Shown: in pieces, positions 26,724-35,916 of the stretch | Layout: every line of letters starts with the position of its first letter | Position numbering within the stretch: the stretch's first letter is position 1 | Origin: Methanosalsum natronophilum | GTDB lineage: Archaea; Halobacteriota; Methanosarcinia; Methanosarcinales; Methanosarcinaceae | DNA length: 35,916 nucleotides | NCBI RefSeq assembly: GCF_024808815.1 | Contig: NZ_JANUCS010000003.1 | Location: 129,386-165,301, forward strand | Direction: 5' to 3' | Program-made: the position numbers and the translations under genes | The notes under the pieces: model-generated | The model's database searches: none | What the model saw: only the letters and a program-made list of their open reading frames with translations | Told to the model about the DNA's origin: nothing

Positions 26724-26972
26724 TCAAACTTTGATCCTCTGATCCCAAATACTCATTAGCTCCTTGGTCTTATCTCTATATCTTTTACCATCTTCTGTCA
26801 TGATAAATATGTTGTTTTCCTGAACTATGAGATCTTTTTCTTTCAATTCATCTATATATCTCTTAGCTATCCTTGAGTTCAAGTTAGCTCCATATACGAT
26901 CCTTGTCTTCGTTGCACCACATGAACATATGTTCAATATGTCTAACACAATATCTGTTTTACTTCTTCTCAT
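26724..26972 (-). CDS. Small winged-helix DNA-binding protein (HTH_45-like), copy 1
   Basis: The 82-residue protein is almost entirely one winged helix: RRSKTDIVLDILNI is the first helix, CGATKTRIVYGANLN and IAKRYIDELKEKDLI are helices two and three, and IVQENNIFIMTEDGKRY is the wing. This is the common archaeal small wHTH pattern. A close relative is encoded at 33076-33339. GGGGG (26985-26981 on the minus strand) lies eight bases before the ATG. The gene converges on the peptidase gene with 20 bp between. A TATA-like GTATATATATAGC about 120 bp upstream (27092-27106 region) suggests a long leader. Confidence 0.75.
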   Translation of the reverse strand: MRRSKTDIVLDILNICSCGATKTRIVYGANLNSRIAKRYIDELKEKDLIVQENNIFIMTEDGKRYRDKTKELMSIWDQRIKV

Positions 26973-27250
26973 ATTAATAACCCCCGCTTAATGATAAGCA
27001 GTACTCTCTGATGCGTTTTATGTGTTTGTTCAGTAACCATTCTTAGGACTGTAATTCAGACCCATTTCCCCTATACTTTAATAAGGAACTAAGCTATATA
27101 TATACTTGTCTAATTTTTATATTAATAGAGTTATAAATTTTTGGACTAAATATGGTTATATCGGGCTGAAATTAGTTATACGTGTGTAAAAATATGCTAG
27201 ACTTGAACTATTTAAGTTAGGATTTCAAGTTCTTAATATAGTTTCATACT
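26973..27250. other. Gene-free AT-rich spacer with leader of the wHTH gene and an inverted repeat
   Basis: No reading frame with coding character is seen. The left part is the leader and TATA region of the minus-strand wHTH gene. At 27201-27207 ACTTGAA faces TTCAAGT at 27224-27230 (16-bp spacer), just upstream of the TATA box of the candidate RNA gene, where an activator or repressor could bind. Confidence 0.4.
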
Positions 27251-27251
27251 T

Positions 27252-27260
27252 CTATATAAT
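27252..27260 (+). promoter_or_regulatory. TATA box of candidate ncRNA
   Basis: CTATATAAT lies about 25-30 bp before the outer arm of the structured region at 27283. This is the spacing expected for an archaeal promoter whose transcript begins at the base of the structure. Confidence 0.55.
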
Positions 27261-27280
27261 AGGTTAGAAAGATATGTGCT

Positions 27281-27447
27281 ATTGTGGTTATAGTGGGAAT
27301 GGTTGGGGGTTTTATTGATCTCGTGGGTCTACTGTAACTAAAGGGTTGAAGCCATGACATTCATCCCCTCATAATTAAACAATCTCTCTTGGACCCACGA
27401 GTTCATTCCTAATGACCACATTGATCTACTTTTTTTACTATTTTTTT
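27281..27447 (+). ncRNA. Candidate free-standing structured RNA
   Basis: Nested inverted repeats form a long rod. P1 pairs TGTGGTTAT (27283-27291) with ATGACCACA (27412-27420), with one G-U pair. P2 pairs GGAATG (27296-27301) with CATTCC (27404-27409). P3 is a perfect 10-bp stem of CTCGTGGGTC (27320-27329) with GACCCACGAG (27392-27401). P4 pairs GGGTTGAA (27343-27350) with TTCATCCC (27360-27367), with one mismatch. Two T7 runs at 27430-27436 and 27441-27447 follow as a terminator, and a TATA box precedes. It holds no convincing reading frame. I do not recognise a known RNA family. A Methanosarcinales-specific sRNA or a structured regulatory RNA are both possible. Confidence 0.6.
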
Positions 27448-27581: not shown

Positions 27582-27787
27582 CTATTTAATACTTCCATTT
27601 TATACAGAGTAATGTGGCAGTTATGGTAAAGGAGTGGGGGCCAGATTTGTGTGTTGTAATTGTTTCGGTCATTTGTATTGTTCTAACACACATTTTTGGA
27701 ATTACCAGTTTTCCTTGCATGAGTCCGTAGCTGGCTATGAATAAACAAAAGGAAATTTGAATTTTTACAGTATGGAGGTTAAAAGAT
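27582..27787 (+). promoter_or_regulatory. Promoter and long structured leader of the EF-hand-loop protein gene
   Basis: CTATTTAAT at 27582-27590 is a TATA-like element that predicts a leader of about 175 bases. Within it TGTGTGTT (27648-27655) pairs perfectly with AACACACA (27685-27692). GGAGGTT at about 27774-27780 is a strong ribosome binding site eight bases before the ATG. A long structured leader suggests post-transcriptional control or message stability for an abundant surface protein. Confidence 0.5.
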
Positions 27788-30010
27788 ATGCGATGGAAAC
27801 TGAGTTTAATTTTACTCGCAGCAATAGTATGTCTGGCAATGACAGGCGTTTCTGCAGCAGACGATGTGAAGTTCTGCTGGGAGAAACCATGTGGTACTAT
27901 TGTTGAACAATGTGATAAAGAAACAGTATTCACATTAAATGATGTTGATCCTGAAACAGAGATTGTTAAGACAACACATGGTTATGTGTATGTTAGTATG
28001 AGAAATGTCACGAATGTAGATGGAGACAGGGTAATTGCCCCTGGTGACATCAGACTCTCGAACTGGCATGACAAATATGAACCAAACACCAAAGTAAATG
28101 ATACTGACGCAGACGGAGTTGGGACTACTGTTATATCAGAAATAATTGATGTACCATTAAAATATATGGACATTAATGAAAATGGAATATATGATTTGTA
28201 TGATCCAGTATATGTCGATGTAAATGGAGATGGCGTAGTATCTTCAGGTGACATTAGATTAACTGCTGTACCACCAGTAGACGTTTATTCTCTTGAAATG
28301 GTTGAAGGTGAATATGGTACACTTCTCTGGGAAGCTGGAGAATGGGGCTATGAAGCATGGAGTGTCGTTAGAACCGGAGATGCTGACCGTGGAGAAGAAC
28401 TTATTGCTATTGGTAGTGGACAGGCATCTGACCTTCTTGGATATGTCGATGCAGACGACAGTGGCGATTGGACATGCCCAGACAAACTCTACATAAGAGC
28501 ACCAAATGTACACGACTGGTTCCAGAATGTAGTTACAATAAATGATGTAAGACTCTACATACCACCTGATGAGGAATGTGTTCCAGAATGTGGTACAAAA
28601 GTAGTCCAGGGTGACAAGGACGCAACATATGCATTGACTCCAATTGAAGCAACACTTGTTCAGTTAAGGGACGAACCAACAGCTATCTACATTAACATGG
28701 ATGGTAGCCCAAGTGTTTCTGTTGGTGATATCAGACTTACTGGCGTATCAACAGAATATGATAGAAAGACCAAGGTAACTTTTAGTGACAGATTCGATCT
28801 TGGAGCACCATACGCTACCACTCCCATGGATCAAAATAGCATAAAATATGCAGATATTGATGGAATTGGTGGTTATTCACTTGGAGACCCTCTCTATATA
28901 GATGTGGATGGATCTGGTGACGTCTCAGATGGCGACTTCAGACTTACTGACGTTCCTCTCTTTGCAAAAGGAGATATGACTAAAGGCCAAGCTGGAGAAG
29001 CTGGTACAATTGTGAAAGCTGGACCTACTGTTACAGACGATGCTGATGCAGGTTGGGAATTAAAGACAATAGGTAATATTAATGACATAATTGGATACAT
29101 AGACTCCGATGCAACAGGTACCTGGACATGTCCAGATAAACTGTACTTCCAGCAACTATACGAATCGCGTTATACGCTTGAGGTATCTAATGGCTATGGC
29201 TGGGAGTTTCCACATGACATGTTCGTAACAGTTGGTGACTACAGAGTTTATGAACCAATCAGTGATGTACGCAGTCCATTCTATGGTCTTGAAGAATGGC
29301 CAGAGTCATCCAACAAGGTATTCATGTGTAACAAAGACGCAACTTATGTATTAACTGACCATTTCATGCCAATCGAAGAACTTCTTAGATATGCTGATTT
29401 AAATCAAAATAACAGGTTTGATGTTACTGAACCAGCATACATTGATATGGACAACAGTGGTACAGTTACTGTAGGCGACATAAGACTTACCGATGTAACT
29501 ATAGATGGTGAATTCTTCTACGAAAACAATACTAAAGTAGTAATTCACGATAAAGACATTGGTGTTCCATTGAAGAAATACAGCAATGGTGAATATACAT
29601 GGTTTGCCCATTGTGAAAGAGATCTTCTTAGCTTAATTGAAGAAGATATGGTTCTTGACGGTAAACTTGGATTTAGTATCAAGATTTTCGATGCTGACTG
29701 CAGTAAAGACTGGACATGTGTAGATGGTCTCTACATTCAAAGAGATCACGAAGTACTTGGAACCGCATCAGAAGGATATAATCCAGTAAACATGGACTTT
29801 GTTACTCACATGAATGGTAGATTGTTCATTCCACCAGAGTATATCGCTGACAATGTAAACGATGAGGACAATGACAACAACAATGGTATCGATGAACCAG
29901 TAACACTGGAAGATGTAATCGCAGCTATTAATGAATACATGAATTCTAATGGAGAAAGTCCAACTCTTGATCAGGTAGTATCATTGATAAATGCGTATAT
30001 GAATCAATAA
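27788..30010 (+). CDS. Secreted protein with three modules of EF-hand-like calcium loops
   Basis: The 740-residue protein has a signal peptide (about 1-23, ending GVSAADD). It contains three modules of roughly 200-240 residues, starting near 27, 264 and 510, each opening with a Cys-x-DK-[DE]-T motif. Twelve-residue loops of EF-hand form (D-x-[DN]-x-[DNS]-G, ending in D/E) occur at about 128-139, 144-155, 221-232, 303-314, 356-367, 372-383, 439-450, 537-548, 553-564 and 635-646, with a weaker one at 78-87. Every second loop of a pair runs into GDIRLT or GDFRLT. A third loop type carries WTCPD. The acidic linker (NDEDNDNNN) leads to a C-terminal pair of helices (DVIAAINEYMN, QVVSLINAYMN) that resembles a degenerate dockerin. 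No membrane tail is present. The exact job is unknown; a calcium-dependent envelope protein is likely. Confidence 0.75.
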   Translation: MRWKLSLILLAAIVCLAMTGVSAADDVKFCWEKPCGTIVEQCDKETVFTLNDVDPETEIVKTTHGYVYVSMRNVTNVDGDRVIAPGDIRLSNWHDKYEPNTKVNDTDADGVGTTVISEIIDVPLKYMDINENGIYDLYDPVYVDVNGDGVVSSGDIRLTAVPPVDVYSLEMVEGEYGTLLWEAGEWGYEAWSVVRTGDADRGEELIAIGSGQASDLLGYVDADDSGDWTCPDKLYIRAPNVHDWFQNVVTINDVRLYIPPDEECVPECGTKVVQGDKDATYALTPIEATLVQLRDEPTAIYINMDGSPSVSVGDIRLTGVSTEYDRKTKVTFSDRFDLGAPYATTPMDQNSIKYADIDGIGGYSLGDPLYIDVDGSGDVSDGDFRLTDVPLFAKGDMTKGQAGEAGTIVKAGPTVTDDADAGWELKTIGNINDIIGYIDSDATGTWTCPDKLYFQQLYESRYTLEVSNGYGWEFPHDMFVTVGDYRVYEPISDVRSPFYGLEEWPESSNKVFMCNKDATYVLTDHFMPIEELLRYADLNQNNRFDVTEPAYIDMDNSGTVTVGDIRLTDVTIDGEFFYENNTKVVIHDKDIGVPLKKYSNGEYTWFAHCERDLLSLIEEDMVLDGKLGFSIKIFDADCSKDWTCVDGLYIQRDHEVLGTASEGYNPVNMDFVTHMNGRLFIPPEYIADNVNDEDNDNNNGIDEPVTLEDVIAAINEYMNSNGESPTLDQVVSLINAYMNQ

Positions 30011-35217: not shown

Positions 35218-35597
35218 GATTCTTTTTATTTTTGGGTAAATTTCTAGTTTATTTAACAATTCTATTTATAATAATGTTGCCAGCAACTATTAATTATTTT
35301 GAAACTGGTGATCGAACATTATCTACTCTAACATTTTTCACTTTTTATCTTCCAATGAACTTAATACCTTTTATTGCTTTGGTACTTGCCACACCTGTCA
35401 CTAATAAACTTAGAGCAAAATATATTGGTGTAGGCTCATTTATAATTTTTTTATTCACTATAGCTATAATTTATTTTCAGTTCACTTACACATCGATAGC
35501 TAGTGAGTTGTTTTATTTATATTCAATTGGAAGAGCTGCTTTTCCATTTATATTGTGGTTTGTTCTTGTAAATAAACACCTGGATTTTAATGCATAA
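35214..35597 (+). CDS. Small four-helix membrane protein coupled to the archaeosortase
   Basis: The 127-residue protein consists of about four membrane helices (4-25, 38-60, 70-92, 100-120) with short loops and no recognised motif. Its ATG overlaps the archaeosortase stop in ATGA, so a functional link is likely. XrtH-type bacterial systems also carry a small associated membrane protein, but I cannot claim homology by eye. It could be an accessory subunit or a chaperone for the sortase. About 60 bp after its stop an insertion sequence begins. Confidence 0.6.
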   Translation: MRFFLFLGKFLVYLTILFIIMLPATINYFETGDRTLSTLTFFTFYLPMNLIPFIALVLATPVTNKLRAKYIGVGSFIIFLFTIAIIYFQFTYTSIASELFYLYSIGRAAFPFILWFVLVNKHLDFNA

Positions 35598-35656
35598 CTT
35601 GAGTTAAAGCTAAAAATCACTTTACAATTTTAAAAGCAGTAAGATTGGATGATGAA

Positions 35657-35916
35657 GAGACTGTCGGAAAAGTCACCAGTTCAAATAATATAATTACTGA
35701 TTTTTCTTGACATCAATCTTTTCTTCAGCCCATAATCATAATGAATAGACATACTTATATCCAATTAAGAAAATTAATTTATAAATTAATTGATTAAATT
35801 GTGATAAAAATGTATTCTGTTAGTAAAAGCAATCAAACAACGTTTGTTTATGGCCCTGAAGTATATGAGAAACTCATAATGAAAGATCATCTTCTTTTTC
35901 AGATCAATGAAAAAGT
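35657..35916 (+). mobile_element. Left end of an insertion sequence (IS1182-like), truncated by the window edge
   Basis: GAGACTGTCGGAAAAGT at 35657-35673 has the form of a terminal inverted repeat of IS1182-type elements (GAG-x-CTGTC-x-x-AAAAGT). It stands about 150 bp before the start of a transposase-like reading frame in the same direction. The right end and target duplication lie outside the window. Confidence 0.6.
35810..35916 (+). CDS. Transposase, N-terminal fragment (cut by window edge)
   Basis: Only 35 complete codons are visible from the ATG at 35810. The residues SNQTTFVYGPEVYEKLIMKD followed by HLLFQINEKV match the opening of IS1182/IS5-like transposases, in which a Y/YE-x-LIP-x-DHLL-x-x-I segment comes near the start. 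The family call is tentative because no DDE catalytic residue is in view. A putative terminal repeat lies 150 bp upstream. Confidence 0.6.
   Translation, partial: MYSVSKSNQTTFVYGPEVYEKLIMKDHLLFQINEK

Follow-up and report, generated by a model that had tools for sequence, protein, structure and literature searches.

Few trans-acting small RNAs of archaea have a known target. In Methanosarcina mazei, intergenic RNAs have been described in which an unpaired part of the molecule masks a ribosome-binding site: sRNA162 (PMC3510493), sRNA154 with its loop 2, and sRNA41 (PMC5867862). sRNA162 is 191 nt long and is directed against MM2441 and MM2442. sRNA154 is conserved in Methanosarcina, has two stem loops, is expressed under nitrogen limitation and has nif and gln targets, while the targets of sRNA41 are ACDS operons. 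Here we describe a candidate small RNA gene of Methanosalsum and compare it with these RNAs. The window is the whole analysed stretch of 35 916 nucleotides from Methanosalsum natronophilum; the genome that holds it (G000) has 2.03 Mb.

Anatomy of the RNA gene

A first-pass annotation of the window had proposed a TATA box, a 10-bp arm, an outer arm and two T7 runs in a stretch with no coding frame. All of these elements are found in the sequence where they had been placed (Table 1), and no sense-strand ORF of at least 40 aa covers the RNA stretch. A TATA-like box is located about 30 nt before the start in all copies of the gene across the genus (copies a, b and c, described below); in Methanolobus psychrophilus, 81.6% of primary transcripts have their TATA/BRE at a distance of about 19–22 nt from the start (PMC5378194). 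The pattern of the G/U-rich 5' element has matches only in the three Methanosalsum genomes, and a control pattern has no such matches. The other family copies also have a T-run 3' of the helix, and in M. maripaludis efficient binding of aCPSF1 has been reported for two U-tracts of at least four residues (PMC8716108). The RNA gene most likely extends from 27282 to about 27447, with a predicted RNA of about 150–165 nt. An inverted repeat (ACTTGAA/TTCAAGT, 27201–27230) that had been pointed out upstream of the TATA box is present but is not conserved in the relatives, and two overlapping 7-bp inverted repeats of like kind are found elsewhere in the 815-nt spacer. We also considered a G-quadruplex in the 5' element and dropped it, the four G-runs being lost in copy b.

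Table 1. Features of the RNA gene and its neighbourhood in window coordinates (G001a, the orthologue in genome G001; R1, the covariance model described in the text)
Feature	Position	Strand	Basis
Divergent upstream gene, winged HTH (HTH_45)	26724..26972	-	
TATA box of RNA gene, TATATAAT	27253..27260	+	sequence; 21 nt 5' of conserved start 27282
G/U-rich 5' element, predicted transcription start	27282..27308	+	23/27 identical to G001a
Central helix, 5' arm	27320..27331	+	covariation; register found independently by R1
Apical hairpin in loop (GGG.TGAA / TTCA.CCC)	27343..27367	+	predicted fold
Internal loop 3' strand, conserved, anti-Shine-Dalgarno-like, proposed pairing region	27361..27387	+	24/29 identical to G001a
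Central helix, 3' arm	27390..27401	+	covariation; R1 register
Outer-arm insert, window copy only, pairs with 5' element 27284-27291	27412..27419	+	fold; absent from relatives
Two T7 tracts, predicted terminator	27430..27436, 27441..27447	+	sequence
TATA-like box of next gene, TATTTAATA	27583..27591	+	conserved between window and L003
Leader of next gene, 5' end similar to 5' element of RNA	27612..27787	+	weak R1 matches; suggestive only
Downstream gene, secreted/surface-type protein, 740 aa, no Pfam match	27788..30010	+	

A multi-copy family in Methanosalsum

Searches of Rfam and of related genomes by BLASTN had been suggested as checks, and both were run. No Rfam family matches the window RNA, and neither gathering nor relaxed thresholds gave anything relevant for the window, the orthologues or the paralogues. 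BLASTN against the relatives finds the window RNA matching itself only, because the helix sequence has been replaced in these genomes. The homologous surface-protein gene led instead to syntenic intergenic sites in L003 and L009 (G001, a genome of the same genus with 2.14 Mb in one contig), and the RNA is present in both. The orthologues (copy a) retain the start, the tail and the T-run; between the window and G001 the tail with its T-run is identical at 14/20 positions, alongside the 5' element and the loop strand (Table 1). The helix arms agree at 5/12 and 6/12 positions, yet their pairing is kept.

With the G001 RNA as query, G001 and G002 each yielded a second copy (b), which has other genes as neighbours. 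From two a and two b copies, with the window copy excluded, we built a covariance model (R1), which found a third copy (c) in tandem with b in both genomes, again with a TATA box about 30 nt before its start. These copies are located on the minus strand of L048 (G001:C1:344911-345034 and 345297-345436) and at L049:2318-2449 and 2695-2814, where the tandem pair sits between the genes for a 127-aa membrane protein and a 124-aa product in G001 and G002. Copy b is missing from the end of the window that is syntenic to this site (35597–35916).

In the window, R1 has a single match, at 27282–27416 (22.2 bits, E 0.005). The same RNA is the top match in about 2 Mb, nearly all, of G000, followed by scores of 18.2 and 18.0 bits, and its site is the only G000 match listed in the whole-genome search. 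Over 112 Methanosarcinaceae genomes, convincing R1 matches were found in Methanosalsum only. A match in L073 (G105) was rejected as a member, being a hairpin without the 5' element. The first-pass annotation had named the sRNA154 kind as the nearest idea; with no convincing R1 member outside Methanosalsum and no Rfam match, that kinship is not supported, and the R1 search, an indirect test of it, found no homologue shared with Methanosarcina among the 112 genomes. The window RNA has the 5' element, the covarying central helix, the conserved loop strand and the T-run of the family, and it appears to belong to a small multi-copy family that is confined, as far as tested, to Methanosalsum.

Fold and covariation

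The predicted folding energy of the window RNA is -43.8 kcal/mol, compared with -37.9 ± 3.8 kcal/mol for shuffled sequences (z -1.57; 11 of the 200 shuffles equally good), and by itself it is not significant. Shuffles also yield equally long helices once G-U pairs are allowed. Due to this weak separation, the case for an RNA rests on comparison. The exact 10-bp arm (27320–27329 with 27392–27401) is lengthened to 12 bp by 27330–27331 with 27390–27391. Three sequence types of this helix are available, namely the window, copies a and b of G001 and G002, and copy c. Across them, seven of the 12 pairs are changed on both sides; among the rest, one has a one-sided change, three are invariant and one, at the base of the helix, does not pair in c. 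With the arms of these only three types placed manually on the structure and joined by an artificial GAAA loop, 97% of the helix cells were paired, compared with 26–36% when the alignment was slid. We regard the covariation in these sequences as good but not large evidence for the central helix.

The compensatory changes looked for in the stems are seen in the central helix, and the relatives support that helix only. The outer arm (GTGGTTAT/ATGACCAC, 27284–27291 with 27412–27419 in the window sequence) is without such support because it is partly built from the window-only insert. The apical hairpin has a GGATGA/TCATCC counterpart in G001a, G002a and G001b, two pairs of which are broken in G002b. 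Judged by these alignments, conservation of sequence lies in the G/U-rich 5' end and in a single strand of the internal loop, and not in the stems. The comparison supports a free-standing structured RNA gene that would be transcribed from its own promoter to its own terminator; this part of the earlier proposal stood, but the outer stem is not conserved.

A predicted pilin target in G001

A 26-nt piece of the G001a loop was found by BLAST to be antisense, at 25/26 nt (E 3e-4), to G001:C1:1534305-1534329, in the leader of a gene for a type IV pilin (Pilin_N, PF07790). In the predicted duplex, AGAGAGAAUGUCAAAUUAGGAGGGAACAUAAAUG of the pilin mRNA is paired with UCCCUCCUAAUUUGACAUAUCUCUCU of the G001a RNA, covering the Shine-Dalgarno region. 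Its energy is -41.2 kcal/mol (background mean -12.1, sd 4.0), and the 5' element of G001a pairs with the stretch directly upstream in the same leader at -25.8 kcal/mol (mean -14.1, sd 3.4), each at rank 1 of 1856 against a background of the 1855 gene leaders of G000, not those of G001. If the two pilin sites were no more than an inverted copy of the RNA gene, they would be expected in the opposite order. By analogy with described RNAs, the G001 orthologue fits a mode in which the ribosome-binding site would be masked, with unusually long pairing. A DUF5371 gene (70 aa; L050:1070-1282) lies directly upstream of the G001 pilin gene and was not found at the syntenic site of G000, so the pilin leader has been rearranged between the species.

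Target search in the window genome

The syntenic pilin gene of G000 (L052) adjoins the same universal-stress-type gene, and its leader differs. It was rejected as a target of the window RNA since the leader is without complementarity. A two-site scan of the 1855 gene leaders of G000 gave no outlier for the window RNA. By summed z-score, none of these leaders would pair with it as well as the pilin leader of G001 would, an outcome sufficiently explained by the likeness between the window RNA and G001a. An unpaired region complementary to a ribosome-binding site is seen for G001a, and no such target was found for the window copy in G000. In the fold of the window copy, the insert can sequester the 5' element. 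A 14-mer complementary to a motif found family-wide (L065, L067, L069) is not claimed as a target, since by our estimate chance would give about 0.3 such matches per genome and genera that lack the RNA conserve the motif as well.

Other sequence elements

The 15-mer TGAGGGGATGAATGG, as a rule present at two loci in a genome, is found in 66 of the 112 Methanosarcinaceae genomes and nine of the 14 genera, but not in the large genus g7; its reversed control pattern has zero matches. It was seen at L065:1501-1560, L067:129-190 and L069:1501-1560, and also at L064:648-740 and near L068:1501-1520 (minus strand). At one of the loci, two copies stand in tandem in a leader that precedes a Q-rich wHTH gene; the other is a conserved hairpin closed by GGAAACGG/CCCGTTTCC that adjoins an RtcB-like gene in Methanosalsum. 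Neither has a match in Rfam. The pair could be a regulator-binding leader and a sponge-like RNA. On the minus strand of L098:8330-8450 (G000:C2 near 128450), a TATA-preceded G/T-rich start, GATGAGCGGATTGGGGAGTGGGGG, is closed by CCGCTCATC; this may be a further small RNA, or a leader. L102:5500-5900 (G000:C4) has a CRISPR-like repeat, GTTCCCCACACACGTGGGGATGAACCG, and two spacer-like stretches that are identical to each other.

Proposed mechanism and alternatives

We propose, with a probability of roughly 0.55, that the gene encodes an independently transcribed, trans-acting antisense RNA of about 150–165 nt that masks ribosome-binding sites and blocks translation. The covarying helix would present an asymmetric loop, of which the 3' strand carries the anti-Shine-Dalgarno-like sequence. 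This strand and the G/U-rich 5' end would base-pair in trans with the leader of a target mRNA, and the pairing would cover the ribosome-binding site and block translation. The mechanism of the window copy is proposed from homology and from its conserved anti-Shine-Dalgarno-like loop. We computed the gene anatomy, the helix covariation, the paralogues and the two-site complementarity of one orthologue to its own pilin leader, and we infer transcription, a duplex in cells, repression, and the same action of the window copy on a target.

The neighbouring leader suggests another origin and role. The RNA adjoins the leader of the 740-aa gene on its upstream side, and this leader begins, about 30 nt 3' of a TATA box of its own, with a G/U-rich stretch that resembles the 5' end of the RNA; a TATA box followed after about 30 nt by a G/T-rich start is found in just two places in the window, the RNA gene and this leader. 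The promoter and leader of the surface-protein gene may have been duplicated in tandem, leaving a decoy that shares a protein or RNA partner with the leader, or a terminated leader without trans targets. R1 has weak matches at the predicted leader start in three genomes, but their scores (14.4–14.6 bits) fall within the noise of a genome-scale search. The RNA and leader of G001 align in register with P 0.008, which is one of 20 comparisons, whereas the window RNA and window leader are not aligned above chance (P 0.98). Moreover, no leader counterpart was identified for the conserved loop strand, and the pilin complementarity would be left unexplained. We find this origin doubtful.

The position upstream of the 740-aa gene is fixed in three genomes, as it would be if transcription or termination of the unit acted in cis to tune the promoter of that gene. 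However, copies b and c are located elsewhere, next to other genes, a conserved TATA box and start belong to the 740-aa gene itself, and such a role needs no conserved loop sequence, all of which makes a cis-acting unit improbable. That there is no RNA gene at all, and merely a chance hairpin or a DNA-level element as the folding energy by itself might suggest, is very improbable in view of the compensatory changes, the conserved start and T-run, and the unlinked paralogues.

Under the trans-acting antisense RNA that we prefer, a broader picture can be drawn, which is speculative and unlikely to be right as a whole: a genus-specific sRNA family that duplicates near surface-protein genes, has its 5' end in common with the neighbouring leader, and grips the pilin mRNA at two sites, thereby linking the expression of the cell surface and of pili. 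The family was found from sequence alone and comes with covariation, paralogues and, in one species, a strong and specific prediction of two neighbouring sites that span a pilin ribosome-binding site. If the prediction is true, post-transcriptional control extends to the type IV pili of archaea, and sRNA targets are replaced rapidly between sister species.

Comparison with the sRNAs of Methanosarcina mazei

As described for sRNA154, the window RNA is intergenic and structured, and loop 2 of sRNA154 can mask a ribosome-binding site (PMC5867862); the two differ in the conservation, stem loops, expression and targets given above for sRNA154. The proposed likeness to sRNA41, taken from its description only, lies in the repression of translation through masking of the ribosome-binding site (PMC5867862), and the difference in its ACDS operon targets. 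More features are shared with sRNA162 and its paralogue sRNA171 (PMC3510493): an intergenic position next to an HTH regulator gene, confinement to close relatives, and the existence of a paralogue similar in structure. Stem-loops with an unpaired part that covers a ribosome-binding site, and a further pairing domain at the 5' end, would also be common to both, as predicted in Methanosalsum for the G001 orthologue. In sRNA162/171 there are three stem loops, of which SL2 and SL3 are joined by a 39-nt linker. This layout was not found in the window RNA, which has one long helix with the pairing strand in an internal loop and a small apical hairpin. In its working, sRNA162, whose unpaired linker masks the ribosome-binding site (PMC3510493), is probably the closest analogue. 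The RNAs of Methanosalsum would thus be a new family of a known kind, outside Rfam and resembling sRNA154 and sRNA162 in the proposed mechanism.
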